Source: a virus
Length of the DNA stretch: 25,659 nucleotides
Strand: one strand, 5' to 3'
IMG/VR virus record: IMGVR_UViG_3300024265_000807
Location: 1-25,659 of that record
The notes beneath the pieces were generated by a model. It had not been told where the DNA came from, searched no databases, and saw nothing but the letters and a program-made list of their open reading frames with translations. A program made the position numbers and the translations under genes. How positions within the stretch are numbered: position 1 is the first letter of the stretch; the number at the start of each line of letters is the position of its first letter. Positions 1,673-16,122 of the stretch are shown here, in pieces.

Positions 1673-1999
1673 TCAAAACACATCGAAATTCCACCCGTCT
1701 CCCTTTACTGTTGCCCCATTGACTCGCCTGCTGAACAGAGTCGTTTCGTCCACGACCATTCGGATACAATTACCCCAACTAATGGGAGTGTTGATACAGA
1801 CGAGTTGCTTGTCTTCAAAGCGATCGTCATTTGTGTTGACCTCAACAATGCATTGATCGGGTATGGACACAGTGAATTCGTAGATGGCATCTTCAGTCTC
1901 GACGAAAATGATTACCCCTTTTTCAAGATTGGCAATCTGGATCGAAGCCGAATGGATCTGGTCCGCCGCAGTCGAAACGATATCCTTGGGCTCGTTCAT
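1673..1999 (-). CDS. Hypothetical protein (108 aa), beta-rich
   Basis: The second ATG at 1999 is preferred over the one at 2008 because AAGGA lies eight bases before it, whereas that sequence abuts the first ATG. The protein starts MNEPKDIVSTAADQIHSA, then has a strand-rich body with KGVIIFVETEDAIYEF, IVEVNTNDDRFEDKQLVC and RMVVDETTLFSRRVNG. Small beta-rich phage proteins of this look are common and uncharacterised; no catalytic motif is visible. The 5' part overlaps the 3' end of the ParB-like gene by 77 bases in another frame. Such a long overlap is a caution, but the smooth hydrophobic/acidic strand pattern supports a real gene. It is the last protein gene before tRNA-Thr in this transcript. 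Confidence 0.6.
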   Translation of the reverse strand: MNEPKDIVSTAADQIHSASIQIANLEKGVIIFVETEDAIYEFTVSIPDQCIVEVNTNDDRFEDKQLVCINTPISWGNCIRMVVDETTLFSRRVNGATVKGDGWNFDVF

Positions 2000-2753
2000 G
2001 GATGTCATCCTTAATGTCCTGGTCAGTAATGTAGCCTGCTGCCCACGTTAGAAGCCGAAGTGGTAATCCTTCAATTTCGGCATCCATCAGTAAGGCTACC
2101 ATCTGGCTGATCTGTGCTTTTGATTTTCTCGGTCGAATCCTACGTCGGAGCTTGGCAGGTAAGCGAGATGTCTTCCCTCTCACACGCTTGGCTTTCACGA
2201 TCTCTTCCGCCGCCTTGACTCGATCGCCTTTCGGCAGTTTGCAAAGGGCTTCAATGTTCATTGCTGAGAGCAGACCAGCCGCTGCTTTTTTCTGAATTGC
2301 TTCCGGTAGCTCCAACAGACGCAGGCGGACGTGAATCCAGTGTGTCGATCGTTTCAGTTCCTTTGCTGCTGTCCTCAGCGATACACCATCTGGGTAGAGA
2401 TGTTGAATCGCCTGTGCCTCTTCCAACATGTTCAGATCTTTGCGCTCAAGATTCTCCGTGAGGTTCAGGATACGGGCTTGGTGTTCTGTTAGGTTGTGTC
2501 GAATTGTCGCTGGAACTGTCTCCCATTTCAAGAAGATTGTAACAGCTTTGAACCGCCTGTGGCCAGCAAGTAAGCGATAAGAGCCTCCCCATGGTTGGAC
2601 AACGATGGGGAATTGAAGTCCGTTCTCTTTGATCGATTCCGCCAAGTCGACGACGGATTGAGGCGTAAACGCACCCCGGCAATTGAAGCTGGAATCATAC
2701 TGAATGTCCGTGGCCGGTATGGCAAATGTATCATACTGTTCAAGTCGTTCCAT
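1923..2753 (-). CDS. ParB-like nuclease/partition-domain protein (276 aa)
   Basis: The N-terminal half is a ParB N-terminal (ParB/Srx) domain: AIPATDIQYDSSFNCRGAF, then AESIKENGLQFPIVVQP, then the box LLAGHRRFKA (GHRR at 64-67) and the second box LTENLERKDLNMLEEA (ENxxR/xxL, about 100-107). Residues about 120-150 (GVSLRTAAKELKRSTHWI) form the central DNA-binding HTH. A basic stretch RGKTSRLPAKLRRRIRPRKS follows, and the C-terminus is Gly/Asp/Pro-rich. In ParB families the GxRR box binds CTP and the HTH a parS-like site; some phage relatives act as transcription regulators or nucleases. No ParA ATPase lies next to it. The ATG at 2753 (MERLEQ) is chosen over an upstream TTG, giving a 14-base overlap with the preceding gene. 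A second ParB-like gene lies at 12119-13006. Confidence 0.85.
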   Translation of the reverse strand: MERLEQYDTFAIPATDIQYDSSFNCRGAFTPQSVVDLAESIKENGLQFPIVVQPWGGSYRLLAGHRRFKAVTIFLKWETVPATIRHNLTEHQARILNLTENLERKDLNMLEEAQAIQHLYPDGVSLRTAAKELKRSTHWIHVRLRLLELPEAIQKKAAAGLLSAMNIEALCKLPKGDRVKAAEEIVKAKRVRGKTSRLPAKLRRRIRPRKSKAQISQMVALLMDAEIEGLPLRLLTWAAGYITDQDIKDDIHERAQGYRFDCGGPDPFGFDPDCQS

Positions 2754-3102
2754 GTCCGAACACCCACAAACGATCAAAGTTCTCGCAGGCTATCTCTGGT
2801 GAATCACCGTGAGCAACTACACCAGAATGCTCACAAGCCCATTGATCGTTATGCTCCTCAAAGAATATGTCAGGCCAGAGTGCTCGCGATGGTCGCTGTT
2901 GTTCTTTCCTCAGTCTCTTCTCTTCCTCAAGATTTTGGGAATCCTGTGAACGACCTGAACGGTTGTGCTCCAGTTGTTCCTCCTGATCCGTGGCACCAAC
3001 CTGGGATCGGTACGCTTCCAGTTCCGCTTCCGTTTTCCTTGCCCTCTCAGTCTGCAAACGAGCCTTCATAATCTTCAGGCTGAGTATCTTGGCTTTGCTC
3101 AT
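2740..3102 (-). CDS. Hypothetical coiled-coil protein (120 aa)
   Basis: It starts two bases after the stop of the upstream gene (TGACATG), so it is likely translationally coupled. The N-terminal two thirds is charged and helical, rich in Glu, Lys, Arg and Gln (MKARLQTERARKTEAELEAY and QNLEEEKRLRKEQQRP) and is predicted to form coiled coil at about residues 8-35 and 55-72. A compact C-terminus carries WACEHSGVVAHGDSPEIA followed by ENFDRLWVFG. That end resembles short phage proteins of unknown role whose C-terminal segment has the pattern GVVAxGDSPExA. No enzyme motif is seen. The 3' end overlaps the start of the ParB-like gene, which suggests the two products are made together. Confidence 0.65.
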   Translation of the reverse strand: MSKAKILSLKIMKARLQTERARKTEAELEAYRSQVGATDQEEQLEHNRSGRSQDSQNLEEEKRLRKEQQRPSRALWPDIFFEEHNDQWACEHSGVVAHGDSPEIACENFDRLWVFGHGTT

Positions 3103-7088: not shown

Positions 7089-7400
7089 CTAATTGTCAAA
7101 ATCAATTCCATCTCCGATAGTCTCACCGAAATCAATTTCGATGTCGATCGCAGACTCGTGAAGATCGGGGAAACGTTCTAGCAAACTCTCGAACACAATG
7201 TCTTCGACGACTTCGCTATCCCGATCTTCGCAGTGCGTTTCCATGACAATGATACCATCATCGTCATACCGGAACGTGCTAAGTTCCTCTCCGTAGGATC
7301 GTAGACCATCTTCGATGGCTTCCAGGAAATCTTTCCCAGGATCATCCAATTGGTTCAACCAATCCATGTCGATTGAGATGTAGAGACGTGTCCTATTCAT
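7089..7400 (-). CDS. Acidic hypothetical protein (103 aa)
   Basis: The start overlaps the helicase stop (ATGA at 7397-7400), so the two genes are coupled. After a first strand with RTRLYISIDMDWLNQL the protein is very acidic: GKDFLEAIEDGLRSYG, YDDDGIIVMETHCED, and DIEIDFGETIGDGIDF at the end. Net charge is strongly negative. It has alternating strands and helices (beta-alpha-beta-alpha-beta) but no catalytic motif I can name. Small acidic proteins next to a helicase can act as modulators or DNA mimics, but nothing here proves that. The 30-base gap between its stop and the next start carries only the protease RBS. Confidence 0.65.
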   Translation of the reverse strand: MNRTRLYISIDMDWLNQLDDPGKDFLEAIEDGLRSYGEELSTFRYDDDGIIVMETHCEDRDSEVVEDIVFESLLERFPDLHESAIDIEIDFGETIGDGIDFDN

Positions 7401-10399
7401 GCTTCAACAACCTCCATCCCTTCCCCGGCATTCTCCCAGTCGATGTCATCGACCAGTTCACCGAGTGTCAGCAGTTCAAGTTTCCTGTTTTCACGAATGA
7501 TTTTGAGGACACGTTCGTCAGTCGGGAGATGTATCAAATCGACAATGATACATCCAAGATTCTCATCCATGCCCTTACGATGAATTCGATCTTCGCTCTG
7601 GCCACGATATTCGGGCTTGAACGAATTGGACCAGTAGACTGCCATCCTGGATTCTACCAGCGTGAGTGACATCCCACCCGATTCTGGATGGGCAACAAAG
7701 GCAACTTCGGGGTTATTTTCCAAGTCCGCCCAGAAGTCCAACGCCTCCGTCTCAGTGAGTATGTTACCATCCTTGTCTGTCACTTGGAAGCCACGCCCAT
7801 CACACCGGACGACGGCCCAACCCTCCTTGTGGCAGATGTTGACGCAACGGTCAACGCTGCCGGTGAAGCCTGCAAAGATCAAGATCCGTCCAGTTTCTAC
7901 ACATTCTTCAAGAAGACCCCGGAGAGCTTTCTCTTTTGGGCAGGCGATCTCGCGAGCGATACGCTTGATCTTTTTCATCTCTCCCTTGCCCTTACACTTC
8001 GGACAGGGGACTCTTCGTTTCTCCAGTTGGACAACACGGTCATCCAGGAGCATGCTGATGTCTTGATAGACCTTCAACTCGTCATTTGGATCAAACCATT
8101 CATCCACCTCACCGCAAGCGTTCTCACAATGATTGCACTTTCGCATGCCATCGGCAATGTCACGATATTGGAAGCCGTCCGACAACTCTCGGAGCAGGGT
8201 CCCACCAGTCATTGCATTCGGAGCCGACTCGGCTATTACCTTGGCCACCCGCAACAGAGAGGCTGAAGGTTTACAGATGACCTTTCGGTAACGTTTGTCA
8301 GGTAGGTCGAGACAATCCTTTTTGTGCTTGACGACTACGAGTCCTTTGAGCCGTTCAAACATGTAGCCGACTTCATTCTTGGAAGCCTCATACGGATGGT
8401 AGTCCTCGCTGTCCCCATAGGGATCAATCTCGTGGACGCCCTCTTCATGTGCTAAACCGCACTTGTTGCACTTGAGTTCATTGTCTTTCCACCCAGTGGT
8501 CTTCCAGAAGGTCCCAGAGTCAAACGTCTGCTGTTCCTGGAAAGCCAAGCGAGACTTCAACGCCTTCACACTACCTTCACGAAGGAAGCCGGGCCAGGCA
8601 ATTTCGCAATTATGTGCCAGAAGACCATTGGCTGGGAAACAGTGTTGACCAGGAACTTCTATGTCATATGTTGCCTCAACCTCAGCCTCGTCGAGACTCT
8701 TGACAGTCGCCCACGTGGGGGTTGGGTGGTGATGTCTCGCACGAATCCGTCGTGCCAATGTCTCAACCTTGTCGGGATGGGAAAACCCAATCCTTTCTGA
8801 AAACGCTTCGGCATTGTTGCCGGTAATGTGCAAGATATAAGTCCACTCTGGTGCCTGAATCAACCTATCTTCAATGTAGGACTCGTTGCCGTTGCCCTTC
8901 TTGGTCTGGAGTTGGGACCGGATCCCAAAGTAACTCAGCATTCGTTGCACGACGAGCACACGTTCTTTGTCCACTTGGCTCAGAGTAACACGTAAACGGT
9001 TGTAGTCAATAGACCCGTCCGTGTCAAAGAGGCCCCTCAAAAACCCCCGCATACATTCGCTCGAAATGGAACTTTCAAACTGGGCTGGAATATCTTTACA
9101 TGGCTGGAACCCAAATCGTCGAGCAAGGCGAGACATATACTTATGATGTATTCGGAGGGGTTCCTCCCCTGTAGGTACATAAGGCTCGGGCAGGTAACTG
9201 ACAAGAAGATTCGCAAGTTCTTTCTTGCGTCCATATAATGGCAGTGTGGCATGTAATCCACCAGACTTATAATACAAGGACCCATCACCAAACAATACCC
9301 CTAACAAATGCCCATCCCCAAATGTACAGTCGCCCTCCCAATTTGCATCACCGTGGTTTGCCAATTCAATCTGATCACCTGTCTGTAGCTGGCGTAATTC
9401 ACACCAACTCCCATCCTTTTTCAGAAAACGATGATTCCCAGTGGCTTTGACAGAATATCCCTCGTAGGTGTCGAGAGTGTACAGAATTTTGTTGCCGGTG
9501 CAATAGAAACCGCTGGTATGGCACAAGGTATCCCTGACCCGCACGGTCAGGGGTTGGTCTCCTAACTGAGATATTTGACGTGGGCCATTCTCAGTCAAAG
9601 TCCATGTCTCTGCAGAGAGGCACTGGCTCCACCAGTCGGTCGGCTTCTTTGGGCTAGGTGTACCCGACATGAGAATCACATAGCCTTCCCAGCCGTATTC
9701 GTCGCGGATCATGTCCGCCAACTTCTGCATACCTTTCGATCGTTGGCTGGTGTCCGTTTTACATTTGGATGATTCGTCAGCGATGACGCCCTGTGGGATT
9801 GGATTCCCTGGCACCCAGTCGTCAATGGTACGAACGAGACGTTCGTAGGTCATGTGTTCGATCGTAGCCGTCGTCTCGTCGAATCCCCACTTGCGGAACT
9901 CACGTTGGATATTCGGCAGTGAAGTCTTTGGGCCAATCCAATACCAGTGTTGGACGCCGGAATTTTCGATCACCATCTGGGCGGACAAAGTTTTGCCAAC
10001 GCCCATCTCAGCACCCCAGATCTGGTAGTGGTACGTGAGACCCGAGTTCGCCATATCGAATTGATGAGGCATCGGCGATGTTAGCTTACCATCCAGGAAG
10101 TAGTCTCGGTACTCATGGAGGATCAGATCACGATCGAACCACTTGTAGACATCCTCCCCCATCAGATAGTTGAGTTGAAACTGATTGCGGAAGCAATCCT
10201 CAACGGACCAAATCTTCCGAGGATTTTCCTCCTGGAAGCCATGCCACTTGGAGCCCTTCATGGCTTTGATCTCGTCCTTCAGCGCGAACGCACTCTTCAG
10301 AAAGAAGATGCGACCATCCGTGACTTCGATCGTCGCTGGGGAGCGTACGAGTGTGCCACTGGCTGTCCTGAACTGGAGTTTGATGTCTTGTACGCTCAC
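7397..10399 (-). CDS. SNF2-like SF2 helicase/ATPase with in-frame intein (1000 aa precursor, 662 aa mature)
   Basis: The mature protein, without the intein, is an SF2 ATPase of the SNF2/HARP-like phage type. N-terminal residues 30-100 (KDEIKAMKGSKWHGF, PRKIWSV, NQFQLNYLMG) resemble the HARP-like substrate module. Walker A is GAEMGVGKT (129-137), the DEAD-box equivalent is ADESSKCK (207-214), and motif III is MSGTP (244-248). The C-terminal RecA domain has ILIFAGFTGSVD, ESGGMSLTLVES, and motif VI QSEDRIHRKGM (Q934-M944). Three Cys pairs (CNKC 644-647, CNHC 755-758, CPKC 799-802) suggest zinc ribbons inserted between the lobes. A 338-aa intein interrupts it after residue 259. The start is GTG with GGAGGA upstream and a 4-base overlap with the previous gene. 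Likely role: remodelling or annealing DNA during replication or recombination. Confidence 0.92.
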   Translation of the reverse strand: MSVQDIKLQFRTASGTLVRSPATIEVTDGRIFFLKSAFALKDEIKAMKGSKWHGFQEENPRKIWSVEDCFRNQFQLNYLMGEDVYKWFDRDLILHEYRDYFLDGKLTSPMPHQFDMANSGLTYHYQIWGAEMGVGKTLSAQMVIENSGVQHWYWIGPKTSLPNIQREFRKWGFDETTATIEHMTYERLVRTIDDWVPGNPIPQGVIADESSKCKTDTSQRSKGMQKLADMIRDEYGWEGYVILMSGTPSPKKPTDWWSQCLSAETWTLTENGPRQISQLGDQPLTVRVRDTLCHTSGFYCTGNKILYTLDTYEGYSVKATGNHRFLKKDGSWCELRQLQTGDQIELANHGDANWEGDCTFGDGHLLGVLFGDGSLYYKSGGLHATLPLYGRKKELANLLVSYLPEPYVPTGEEPLRIHHKYMSRLARRFGFQPCKDIPAQFESSISSECMRGFLRGLFDTDGSIDYNRLRVTLSQVDKERVLVVQRMLSYFGIRSQLQTKKGNGNESYIEDRLIQAPEWTYILHITGNNAEAFSERIGFSHPDKVETLARRIRARHHHPTPTWATVKSLDEAEVEATYDIEVPGQHCFPANGLLAHNCEIAWPGFLREGSVKALKSRLAFQEQQTFDSGTFWKTTGWKDNELKCNKCGLAHEEGVHEIDPYGDSEDYHPYEASKNEVGYMFERLKGLVVVKHKKDCLDLPDKRYRKVICKPSASLLRVAKVIAESAPNAMTGGTLLRELSDGFQYRDIADGMRKCNHCENACGEVDEWFDPNDELKVYQDISMLLDDRVVQLEKRRVPCPKCKGKGEMKKIKRIAREIACPKEKALRGLLEECVETGRILIFAGFTGSVDRCVNICHKEGWAVVRCDGRGFQVTDKDGNILTETEALDFWADLENNPEVAFVAHPESGGMSLTLVESRMAVYWSNSFKPEYRGQSEDRIHRKGMDENLGCIIVDLIHLPTDERVLKIIRENRKLELLTLGELVDDIDWENAGEGMEVVEA
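8609..9622 (-). mobile_element. Intein with LAGLIDADG homing endonuclease, inserted in the SNF2-like helicase
   Basis: In-frame segment of 338 aa (precursor residues 260-597). It begins with Cys1 (CLSAETWTLTENG) and has the block B pattern ATGNHRFL with TxxH-like G/N/H residues. It carries two LAGLIDADG-type helices (HLLGVLFGDGS and GFLRGLFDTDGS, each ending in Asp-Gly), and ends with YDIEVPGQHCF then LLAHN before a Cys+1 (CEIAW). The HN/C junction and the N-terminal Cys mark a class 1 splicing site. Splicing would join WWSQ to CEIA. The site sits just behind helicase motif III, a conserved stretch, as is usual for inteins. All splicing residues needed are present, so it is probably active; whether the endonuclease still cuts is unknown. 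Confidence 0.93.
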
Positions 10400-12118: not shown

Positions 12119-13006
12119 CTATTCTCCTTGTTCTTTGACCCACCGCTTCCGAACTTTCGCTCGTGTGGCAGTCTCTTGCTCAGCTACGCTCTTTTCATCG
12201 AGATGCATCATCCATTGCAGGGCTGCATTCCAACCATCCAGGGGTGTCTTGCAGTTGGCGGCAGTGATTAACAACGGTGCTTCTGCTGGTGTCCGTGCTT
12301 CCGTCTCGATATCCTTCAGTGAGCGAAGATAAGCATGTGGTGTAAAATCTTCCGTAAAGAAAGCATCAAGTTTTCCTTGCCGAACGGCTTCCTTGAATTG
12401 TTTGACGACGCTGGCGACAATGGATCCGAACTTTGTGACTGGGAGTGATTTGGCTTGATTGATGTAATCGACTCTCAGCTTGGGTGGTATCTTCGCCAGC
12501 ATGTAAGCATTGGCCAGAGGTATCTCCCCACGATCAATTGCTTTTTGGGATCGGTAGTCTAATTTGAGAAGTCCCAGTTGCTTGCTCACCCATCCTGGAC
12601 GTTTGTTGACCAAGCTCGCGAGTTGAGTCAGGGTAATTCCCGGGCGTGCTTTTTGGATCCGATGCAACTGCCGGGCATACTCGATCGGTTTCGTTTCAGG
12701 GCGAATGGCTTGTGCTTGGACTTGAAGCGTAAGGACATCATCGTCGGTGATGTTGTATTTGATGATGCATGGCACTGTCTCGAAGTGCAGTTCCTTTGCG
12801 CACGTGGTTCTCCACATCCCGTCGATGATCTCGAAGAATCCTGGCTGCCGGATGCTTGGCCGTACCGAGATCGAGTTGAGGAATCCCTTCTCGTGGAGCG
12901 ATTCCCGCATTTCCAGATACTCGACCGAATCAGTAGAGACCGGCCTGAGGAGCACCCAGGGCTCTGTGAGCTTCTCTGTGGGTATGCTTTGGACTTGATC
13001 ATTCAT
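12119..13006 (-). CDS. ParB/sulfiredoxin-domain protein with HTH (295 aa)
   Basis: N-terminal ParB-like core: LRPVSTDSVEYLEMRESLHE, KGFLNSISVRP, then IIDGMWRTTCAKEL (the GxxRxxA box, about 62-72) and VPCIIKYNITDDDVL. The second ParB box is diverged (AIRPETKPIEYARQ). A helix-turn-helix is visible at about 123-150 (GITLTQLASLVNKRPGWVSK). The C-terminal part has helices and ends in TRAKVRKRWVKEQ. It is unlike the ParB-like protein at 1923-2753 beyond these boxes, so the two are distant paralogues. As the first gene of the leftward operon, starting 23 bases from the mirrored leader repeat, it may regulate or segregate. In phages such proteins act as regulators or DNA binders; which one is not shown. 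No ParA is seen. Confidence 0.8.
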   Translation of the reverse strand: MNDQVQSIPTEKLTEPWVLLRPVSTDSVEYLEMRESLHEKGFLNSISVRPSIRQPGFFEIIDGMWRTTCAKELHFETVPCIIKYNITDDDVLTLQVQAQAIRPETKPIEYARQLHRIQKARPGITLTQLASLVNKRPGWVSKQLGLLKLDYRSQKAIDRGEIPLANAYMLAKIPPKLRVDYINQAKSLPVTKFGSIVASVVKQFKEAVRQGKLDAFFTEDFTPHAYLRSLKDIETEARTPAEAPLLITAANCKTPLDGWNAALQWMMHLDEKSVAEQETATRAKVRKRWVKEQGE

Positions 13007-13028
13007 TTCGCCAGTTGTGTTCGAGGCT

Positions 13029-13084
13029 GTTCCCTAGTATCTTTCACTAGACTCAGATTTGGGTGAAACGTGACGAAAATCTGG
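13029..13084 (-). repeat. Left arm of a 56-bp mirrored leader repeat
   Basis: Reading outward toward the ParB-like gene, a 15-base block (CCAGATTTTCGTCAC) is followed by 14 diverged bases and then an exact 27-base block containing TGAGTCTAGTG and GATACTAGGGAAC. Its partner is at 13281-13336; 50 of 56 positions match. The 27-base block itself contains a small palindrome, CTAGT and ACTAG seven bases apart. Confidence 0.95.
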
Positions 13085-13280
13085 AAAATTTCTCAAAAGG
13101 GTCGAAGAACCAAATACTCCTACCTCCTTAACCCCTATAGAGCCTTTCTATCTTTTATTCTTTAGTTCTTTAAGTCTCTCCCTTTATTACTTAATTGGTT
13201 ACTTTCCGTCCCCAAATGCTGGAATTCACGTGGTTTGCAGAAATTTTGGATGGCAATCTCTGAGAAATTTGATTACTTTC

Positions 13281-13336
13281 CCAGATTTTCGTCACCTTTC
13301 CACAGAATTTGAGTCTAGTGAAAGATACTAGGGAAC
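13281..13336 (+). repeat. Right arm of the 56-bp mirrored leader repeat
   Basis: Same outward sequence as the left arm, here reading toward the primase-polymerase gene. It has identical 15-base and 27-base blocks with exactly 14 bases between them in both arms. Similarity extends about six further bases (AGGCTC against AGCCTC). The prim-pol start lies 54 bases beyond it, so the arm may be promoter, operator or 5' leader. Confidence 0.95.
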
Positions 13337-13389
13337 AGGCTCACGCCATGCGACCCATGCAATCTGTTTACACGTTCTGGAGGAGACCC

Positions 13390-16122
13390 ATGTCACAAAA
13401 GTTCATCAGTCAGGCCATCGTCGATTTTCTCAAGGCCCGACGCCCCGAGCATCCCGGTCAGGATTTGCTCAATCACTATCTGCAATTTGGTACTGCGCTC
13501 GAAACACAAGTCAATGTCGCCGCCGGGAACGGTGAGCCCGTCCATGGGAAGCGAGCCACTTGGACCGATGGTGTCGATCAATGGTGGAACATCAGGATTC
13601 CGAAGAATGCCATGGATGAGCCCACCTTCAAGGATTACAAGCTCTCCTGGCCCTTAGAGGAACATGTTGAGGGCATTGGCACCACGGGTTGGGACTGGCA
13701 GAACAAAGTCAGCCGGTGGCTGGGTTTCGACTTCGATGCACTCACTGGTCACGCTGTTGGTGTCGGTATCGAAGATGACCAACTGAAAAAGGTTCAGAAG
13801 GCAGCCGAAGCATTGCCCTATGTCGAGGTGCGGAAGAGCACCGGCGGTAAAGGTATCCATCTCTACGTCTACCTGAACGAAATCCCAACTCAGAATCACA
13901 CCGAGCACGCCGCTCTGGCGAGATGTGTATTGGGGTTGATGTCCTCGGAGACCGGCTTTGACTTTGCGAGCCAGATTGATTGTTGTGGCGGTGTCATGTG
14001 GATATATCACCGGAAGCTGACGGTGGAGAACCAAGGGCTCGCGCTTCTGAAATCTGCGGAAAAGCTTCTCGGTCTCGATGATCTACCAGCCAATTGGAAG
14101 GATCACATCGAAGTCATCAGAGGCAAGCGATCCAAGGTTCGCATCGAAGGCATCAAGGATAAGTACATCGATCCGTTCGATCAACTCGCCTCAGCCCGGC
14201 GAAACGTCCCATTGGATGAGGACCACAAAGCCATCATTGACGAGCTTGCCAGGAGTGGGTACTCCACGGTTTGGGTCTCCGATCATCATCTGCTTCAGAC
14301 ACACACGTGTGCTCTTCAGAGGCTCCTGGATGACCCTGACCTCAGGGCGGAACTCAACTTGAAGGGCTTCTACTCAACCACGTCACCAGGAGCCAACAAG
14401 GCCAGCCCTAACTGCTTCATGTTCCCATTACCTGATGGTGCATTCAAGGCATACCGATTCAGTCCCGGAGTCTCCGAAGCTAATACCTGGCAACAGGATG
14501 GCGAAGGTTGGACCACCTGCTTCTACAACCATGAGCCCGATCTGAAGACGGCCTCTCGTGCCCTTGGTGGTGCCGAACTTGCTGACAACAAGGGGTTCCA
14601 ATTCGATGGTGCCAAACAAGCCATTGAAGTGGCCGAAGCTCTCGGAGAGAAGATCGACGTTGAAGATAGATTCCTCTATCGTGAATCTATTCTCCGGCCT
14701 AACAAGGATGGCCGTTTGATTATGCGTGTCAAGAAGGAAAAGGACGAAGCCAAGCCTGCCGATGGTTGGGCCAAGATCCGTGGTGACTGGTGGGAGAAGG
14801 TCTTTGGAGTGAAAACTGATCCTACTGAAGATCAACTAGGTGTGGCCGAATTTGATGATCGACTACGAACACTCGTGACGCCACAAGCTGAATCTGCTGG
14901 ATGGTTTGTACAAGCCAGCAATCACAAATGGCAACGACGCGCACTTGGTGAATGTAAAAACTGGCTTCAACATCACGGTATGGGCAAAACAGAAGCCGAA
15001 GAAATTATTGGAGGTTGTGTCAACAAGCCGTGGGAGTTGGTTAATTTACCCTTCCAAGGTGAGTACCCTGGTGGGCGTCGATGGAACTATAAATCACCAC
15101 AGTTCAGATATAAACCAGCGAAACTCAAAGATGGTGAAATTCCTCACCACCCCAACTGGGACAGAATACTACAACATTGTTTCTGTGATCTCGACTCCGA
15201 GATTAAGAAACTGAATTGGGCAGAAAAAGAAAACATCTGTAACGGCCATCAATTTGGTTTAGCGTGGATTGCTTGTTGTTTTCGTGATCCGTTTGAACCA
15301 TTACCATTTCTATTCTTCTTTGGCAATCAGAACTCAGGGAAATCAATTCTTCATGAGGCACTGAGTCTCCTGGTTACTGGCGGAGTCGTTAGGGCAGACC
15401 AAGCTCTTGTAGCTAACAACAACTTCAATGGTGAACTTGCCACGGGTGTCCTGGCAGTCATTGAAGAGAGAGATATTTCAGGCAGCAAGCAAGCGTATGC
15501 CAGGATTAAGGAATGGGTTACCAGTAGAGAATTGATGATACGCAGGATGCGAACAGACGCCTACTTGCAACCTAATACTCTTCATTTTATGATGATGGCT
15601 AATCACCAAGAAAATTGCCCAGTTGACTATGGTGATACACGAATCATGGTAATTGAAGTGCCTGATTTGCTTGACGAACAAGAGATTCCAAAAAAACTTC
15701 TCCTTCAAAAATTGGAGGATGAAGCACCTCATTTCATGCAAACTCTCATGAGTTTTGAACTTCCGCAAGTGTCCACCCGGTATCGACTACCATTGGTTGA
15801 TACTGAGAAGCGACAGAGGTCTCAAGAGATGCAACGTTCACCTCTAGAGACATTCATCGCTGAGCAATGTCACCACGCTCCAGGTGAAAAGATTCTGTTT
15901 GCAGACTTCTTCGAGCGATTCATCAAGTGGATCGATCCAGCCGAACGCTTTGAATGGAGTAAGTCCAAGGCGTCAAGGAGTTTACCTTCCGACACTCCGT
16001 CTGGTGCCAGCGGAGGCGGCAACCAGCGTTATGTTGGAAATGTCTCTTGGGAACCCTGCAAAGATATAGATGCAACACCCTACATTTGTGCTAACAGCCG
16101 TCTCAGACTAAAGGAAGACTGA
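13390..16122 (+). CDS. Primase-polymerase with SF3 (D5-like) helicase domain (910 aa)
   Basis: The start is ATG 13390 (MSQKFISQAIVDFLKARRP) behind GGAGGAGA; the open frame further upstream runs through the repeat arm and is not likely to be used. The N-terminal third is an archaeo-eukaryotic primase (AEP) fold: LGFDFDAL with D114 and D116, then RKSTGGKGIHLYVYL with H157 of the SxxGxHxY-type motif, then QIDCCGGVMWIYHRK. The C-terminal part is an SF3/virus D5-type ATPase: FFFGNQNSGKSILHEAL with Walker A K651-S652, and VLAVIEERD as Walker B (about 687-695). A sensor-type MMMANHQEN and an arginine-bearing DTRIMVIEVPD follow. It would unwind the duplex and lay primers at the replication fork. It is the first rightward gene and leads the operon. 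Confidence 0.9.
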   Translation: MSQKFISQAIVDFLKARRPEHPGQDLLNHYLQFGTALETQVNVAAGNGEPVHGKRATWTDGVDQWWNIRIPKNAMDEPTFKDYKLSWPLEEHVEGIGTTGWDWQNKVSRWLGFDFDALTGHAVGVGIEDDQLKKVQKAAEALPYVEVRKSTGGKGIHLYVYLNEIPTQNHTEHAALARCVLGLMSSETGFDFASQIDCCGGVMWIYHRKLTVENQGLALLKSAEKLLGLDDLPANWKDHIEVIRGKRSKVRIEGIKDKYIDPFDQLASARRNVPLDEDHKAIIDELARSGYSTVWVSDHHLLQTHTCALQRLLDDPDLRAELNLKGFYSTTSPGANKASPNCFMFPLPDGAFKAYRFSPGVSEANTWQQDGEGWTTCFYNHEPDLKTASRALGGAELADNKGFQFDGAKQAIEVAEALGEKIDVEDRFLYRESILRPNKDGRLIMRVKKEKDEAKPADGWAKIRGDWWEKVFGVKTDPTEDQLGVAEFDDRLRTLVTPQAESAGWFVQASNHKWQRRALGECKNWLQHHGMGKTEAEEIIGGCVNKPWELVNLPFQGEYPGGRRWNYKSPQFRYKPAKLKDGEIPHHPNWDRILQHCFCDLDSEIKKLNWAEKENICNGHQFGLAWIACCFRDPFEPLPFLFFFGNQNSGKSILHEALSLLVTGGVVRADQALVANNNFNGELATGVLAVIEERDISGSKQAYARIKEWVTSRELMIRRMRTDAYLQPNTLHFMMMANHQENCPVDYGDTRIMVIEVPDLLDEQEIPKKLLLQKLEDEAPHFMQTLMSFELPQVSTRYRLPLVDTEKRQRSQEMQRSPLETFIAEQCHHAPGEKILFADFFERFIKWIDPAERFEWSKSKASRSLPSDTPSGASGGGNQRYVGNVSWEPCKDIDATPYICANSRLRLKED

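Follow-up and report, generated by a model that had tools for sequence, protein, structure and literature searches.

The window, a 25,659-bp virus record (IMGVR_UViG_3300024265_000807) that is probably a fragment, carries a single long inverted repeat in the gap between a leftward ParB-like gene and a rightward gene for a P4-type primase-helicase. The two arms of this repeat are most likely an outward-facing pair of promoters, read by the host RNA polymerase with the help of a phage-encoded sigma70-family factor. Comparison of the arms with those of related phages gives good support to the element being a promoter. In the proposed arrangement, two copies of one phage-specific promoter stand back to back, one serving the leftward ParB/DNA-metabolism operon and the other the rightward primase operon. 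Beyond this fragment, a further copy probably precedes the structural operon. A divergent phage sigma70-family factor, which the phage of the window would also carry, would direct the host RNA polymerase to the copies. The -35-like and -10-like blocks would be identical inside a genome because one reader serves all copies, and place and polarity would persist while the letters change because the blocks drift between phages.

The inverted repeat of the window

The arms occupy positions 13023-13097 (minus strand, pointing leftward to the ParB-like gene) and 13268-13342 (plus strand, pointing rightward to the primase gene), as located by a repeat search of the window. Each arm is 75 nucleotides (nt) long, the distance between them is 170 nt, and they are 85% complementary, with 64 of 75 positions identical in a base-by-base comparison. 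None of 200 dinucleotide shuffles scores above 14, and the pair itself reaches 47.5, so the mirrored, outward-reading repeat that the preliminary description had reported between divergent operons is real. Each arm is made up of an exact 15-nt block (CCAGATTTTCGTCAC), a 14-nt spacer, and an exact 29-nt block (TGAGTCTAGTGAAAGATACTAGGGAACAG). That description had the 15-nt block, the spacer length, and its 8 matching positions right, but gave the second block as 27 nt. The sequence GAGTCTAGTGAAAGATACTAGGGAACAG occurs twice in the whole window, whereas shuffles expect 0 occurrences.

Conservation in related phages

The sequence of the element is private to the window, but its architecture is shared. 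IMG/VR viral contigs contain no match to the core of the exact block, and blastn of the element against phages returns none. The nearest relatives were identified through their primase, and wider searches yielded 56 distinct divergent ParB|primase gaps. In the nearest relatives, the same gap contains inverted repeats whose letters are quite unlike those of the window (G001, CTATGTACAAAGGTAGTAAGAGCATT; G003, CTATTCATAATAGTCAACGA). An outward inverted repeat beyond shuffles, defined as a best between-halves repeat whose score no more than 1 of 200 shuffles attains, is present in 41 of the 56 gaps. These 41 gaps are not independent events, as many of the phages are related, and in 2-3 of them the top-scoring pair differs from the promoter-like one. 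The arms, which have counterparts in these homologous gaps, are alike inside each phage and unlike between phages. Place and polarity are conserved while the letters change. A search for the blocks in relatives, which had been proposed as a check, therefore has a divided outcome: the sequence is absent, and the same architecture with other letters is present. The accompanying rule that absence of the repeat from close relatives would refute the idea would mislead, because the architecture persists with other letters.

Because each phage has two copies of the element, positions kept between the copies mark its functional part. Across 29 non-redundant phages, with the first G of TAGG as position 0, copy-to-copy identity is 0.90-1.00 at -32 to -27 (an A-rich block, KGRAAA) and about 0.3-0.5 at -26 to -18, the free spacer. 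It is 0.69-1.00 over -17 to +5, a 23-nt block past which identity is mostly at background. In 54 of 60 arms, the first base of the A-rich block is at -32 or -31. At positions -14 to -4, the copies are nearly always identical inside one phage, and the letters at -12 to -5 vary between phages. The 23-nt block is asymmetric and directed toward a gene. Together, an A-rich block and a 23-nt asymmetric block at a nearly fixed distance resemble a -35/-10 promoter, and a bipartite element with nearly fixed spacing located 5' of operons is what is expected of a phage-sigma-dependent promoter of the phage 7-11 type. In the middle of many short gaps (e.g., L078, L057, and L074), a TTTTTCAG...CTGAAAAA palindrome consists of the two -35-like blocks, which point outward in opposite directions.

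Placed by the position of the A-rich block in relatives (-33 to -28 from the anchor), the proposed -35-like hexamer of the window is CGTCAC. It would lie at 13070-13075 (minus strand) in the left arm, within the exact 15-nt block, and at 13290-13295 (plus strand) in the right arm. This hexamer departs from the KGRAAA sequence of the relatives. The proposed -10-like hexamer, CTAGTG, would correspond to 13045-13050 (minus strand) in the left arm, within the exact 29-nt block, and to 13315-13320 (plus strand) in the right arm.

Start codons near the element bear on where transcription may begin. In seven phages with short gaps, the ParB start codon, as aligned, falls at +3 counted from the first G of TAGG; where the gap measures 190-210 nt, most phages have an in-frame GTG or ATG at +1. 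A GTG or ATG at +1 or +3 is found on the ParB side of 32 out of 33 phages and on the primase side of 25 out of 33, counts that are suggestive only. If these ParB starts are real, transcription would begin from or near the conserved GG, and the ParB mRNA would be leaderless in these phages. The A-rich block would then fall near -35 and the region around -11 to -3 near -10. TATAGG itself is unlikely to be a sigma70 -10 box, as an RNA start at about +8 would clash with ParB starts at +3 or +1.

Copies at other operons

The relative G002 has its primase and ParB genes in the same direction, not divergent, with starts about 5.8 kb apart. Each of the two genes keeps its own copy of the element, the two being directly oriented (GCGTAAAA...GCCTATAGTATG); 30 kb further on there is a third copy. 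A third copy is also found in 10 near-complete relatives before one orthologous gene, which encodes a zinc-finger-like HGG-type protein (G018, G019, G024, G007, G026, and G029, with a more diverged form in G001, G015, G022, and G023). In G001, the HGG-type gene precedes terminase-, portal-, and tail-like genes, names that were partly read off the sequences. The fragments G021 and G037, where no HGG-type gene was found, have two copies only. The element follows operon heads and is tied to genes rather than to a palindrome or an origin. For this reason, a required palindrome is excluded and an origin is unlikely.

The preliminary description had regarded conserved blocks at a conserved distance around a free spacer as promoter-like, a view now borne out by the 56 homologous gaps, the direct copies of G002, and the copies at a third operon. 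The same evidence makes it probable that one factor feeds both operons, as had also been suggested. The additional proposal of a simple switch is not borne out: nothing points to an either-or choice, and the copies look co-regulated, not mutually exclusive.

The candidate reader

Searches with Sigma70 region 2 and region 4 profiles gave scattered matches that led to one family, whose genes share one position relative to their neighbors where compared. The Pfam matches of this family fall below curated cut-offs. All six tested members match phrog_351 (RNA polymerase sigma factor), with values from 3e-4 to 6e-12. A profile of the family matches solved sigma factors, the best being a SigF-type entry (4e-20). 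When an AlphaFold model of a family member (mean predicted local distance difference test score [pLDDT] 75; predicted template modeling score [pTM] 0.46) is compared with the PDB, sigma factors rank first, with low whole-chain TM-scores of 0.2-0.4. This divergent sigma70-family gene is present in 33 of 45 relative records, including all searched records of at least 51 kb. The relatives thus encode the kind of factor on which promoters of the 7-11 type depend, and this family likely reads the element.

Several observations weigh against this reading. No sigma gene is found in the window itself, a fragment that begins inside PolA; the sigma gene of G003 lies a few kb past that point. An additional sigma gene, different from the common one, is present in both G001 and G002, and the acting factor there could be either. 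These second factors belong to phrog_1740 (G001:8077-8865 and G002:20462-21226, both on the minus strand). Element distance correlates with sigma distance in 22 phages when ParB and primase distances are controlled (partial rho 0.48, p 0.002), but the correlation does not stand out against the mean of 14 other genes (0.13, p 0.28; 13 phages), so the sigma factor is not singled out as the reader. Moreover, some of the 56 gaps lack a clear repeat, the family consensus is a loose fit to the elements of the window, G001, and G003, and sigma promoters usually share fewer than 23 nt. Finally, the promoters are proposed from sequence, as are their transcript starts.

Alternative explanations

The best of the alternatives, although improbable, is an operator pair, in which a DNA-binding regulator of the phage, such as an autoregulating ParB-like protein, would bind both arms and control ordinary host promoters. 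The ParB-like gene, which encodes a helix-turn-helix (HTH), comes first among the genes served, short dyads are present in the window and G003 elements, and the element adjoins the ParB start codon in several phages. This proximity recalls ParB/parS and the autoregulation of ParB-family proteins. However, the element is mostly non-palindromic and asymmetric, unlike the sites of dimeric regulators, and also heads primase and structural genes. Furthermore, ParB distance contributes nothing to element distance. The ParB protein was judged less likely to be the reader as its HTH region is nearly identical in the window and G001, where the elements differ. As for ordinary host promoters, TTGACA-(16-18)-TATAAT-like sigma70 sites number 0 in the gap against 0.6 expected in shuffles, although this consensus may not be that of the host.

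Much less probable is a replication origin, in which inverted initiator sites would flank an AT-rich unwinding core and be bound by the primase-helicase. P4-type primases can bind origins, and the AT-rich core of the window adjoins replication genes; the preliminary description had placed a possible origin there. In G002, however, the copies are about 5.8 kb apart and directly oriented, so that they do not surround one core and no mirrored pair is needed. A further copy precedes an unrelated operon, and core length varies widely among relatives, being about 30-45 nt in many. The GC skew, proposed earlier as a check for an inflection in the window, follows gene direction and turns negative again near 19 kb, where the genes reverse. 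A separate origin could nevertheless lie elsewhere within the core of this phage.

Promoters for a single-subunit phage RNA polymerase of the T7 type are even harder to sustain. The layout is attractive: the 23-nt asymmetric block, its TATAGG-like end, and a region varying between phages (-12 to -5) resemble a T7 promoter. However, the upstream block at a nearly fixed distance has no T7 counterpart, and the relatives do not appear to encode the enzyme. A PF00940 search found no T7-type polymerase in 33 relatives, and a repeat search of 10 relatives beside T7 again found none, with the T7 positive control at 9.9e-110. In addition, G001 and G002 have no unassigned open frame of suitable size, judging by gene names given partly by eye. 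A T7-like polymerase was rejected after this T7-controlled search.

Least credible of all is that the arms are kept as a stem (a cruciform or an invertible segment) whose self-complementarity is what is conserved, for although the arms are complementary in each phage despite the change in sequence, the spacer inside them has lost complementarity while both blocks retained it, the direct copies of the tandem relative G002 contradict a stem, and single copies recur at the third operon.

Relation to known phage sigma factors

A few model phages are known to encode sigma factors that have promoters of their own, and literature searches found no description of the phages considered here. Phage 7-11 encodes the sigma factor SaPh711_gp47 and has bipartite late promoters, GTAAtg-(16)-aCTA; its promoter places match those of phiEco32, whereas the promoter sequences differ (PMC8948821). 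Insofar as it can be judged from sequence, the present system works like that of 7-11: a phage sigma70-family factor would act on bipartite promoters at operon heads, whose places are conserved but not their sequences. Unlike in 7-11, two to three near-identical copies are found per genome, two of them mirrored. In phiEco32, gp36 promoters (tAATGTAtA) precede middle and late genes (PMC8948821). The proposed system shares with gp36 a phage sigma factor with its own promoters. However, the phiEco32 promoter is a single element and its sigma factor lacks region 4 homology, whereas the present element has an upstream block at a nearly fixed distance and the candidate factor has a region-4-like HTH.

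The discovery of further sigma-promoter pairs has been predicted (PMC8948821). The mirrored pair allows a promoter to be recognized directly in genome sequences, here in some 40 genomes and in many versions. If the link to the sigma family is true, these phages would hold dozens of natural sigma-promoter pairs that show how sigma specificity evolves. They would also provide a ready library for mapping sigma residues to promoter bases and a source of orthogonal expression tools. A broader generalization, about which we are evenly divided, is that a large uncultured phage group has a sigma factor that diverges quickly and a regulon of about three promoters, each heading one of the main operons, with letters matched within each phage but changing between phages, and a leaderless ParB mRNA in many.

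Flanking genes and other features

The genes on either side of the gap are as originally described. The ParB-like gene (12119-13006, minus strand) heads the leftward operon and matches Pfam ParB_N and HTH_ParB as well as ParB-like PHROGs. The gene heading the rightward operon (13390-16122, plus strand), earlier called prim-pol, encodes a P4-type primase-helicase, with matches to DUF5906, to DNA primase PHROGs, and, weakly, to the P4-family primase C-terminus. Its preferred start is the ATG at 13390, with GGAGGAG immediately 5'; a TTG at 13309 is less good. In G003 (L054), the primase frame is broken near residue 313-327 and resumes in another frame, possibly through a sequencing error. A second ParB-like gene of the window (1923-2777, minus strand) has stronger ParB matches than the first and has homologues in the compared relatives. 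An intein with a LAGLIDADG domain splits a SNF2-type helicase gene (7397-10399, minus strand).

The AT-rich core separating the arms spans 13098-13267. A TACTT-containing stretch aligns across the cores of the window, G001, G003, and L067, and TTGGTTACTTTCC (13195-13207) recurs as TTGATTACTTTCC (13269-13281); both may be chance. A 12-nt near-palindrome, GCGTTTAYACGC, its reverse complement, or a one-base variant is present in 36 of the 56 gaps, with about 0.02 expected per genome. It usually lies 16-47 nt 5' of the primase start, between the right arm and the primase gene in most relatives, and may be an operator for another regulator. A degenerate form of it is present in the window at 13365-13376 (TGTTTACACGTT).
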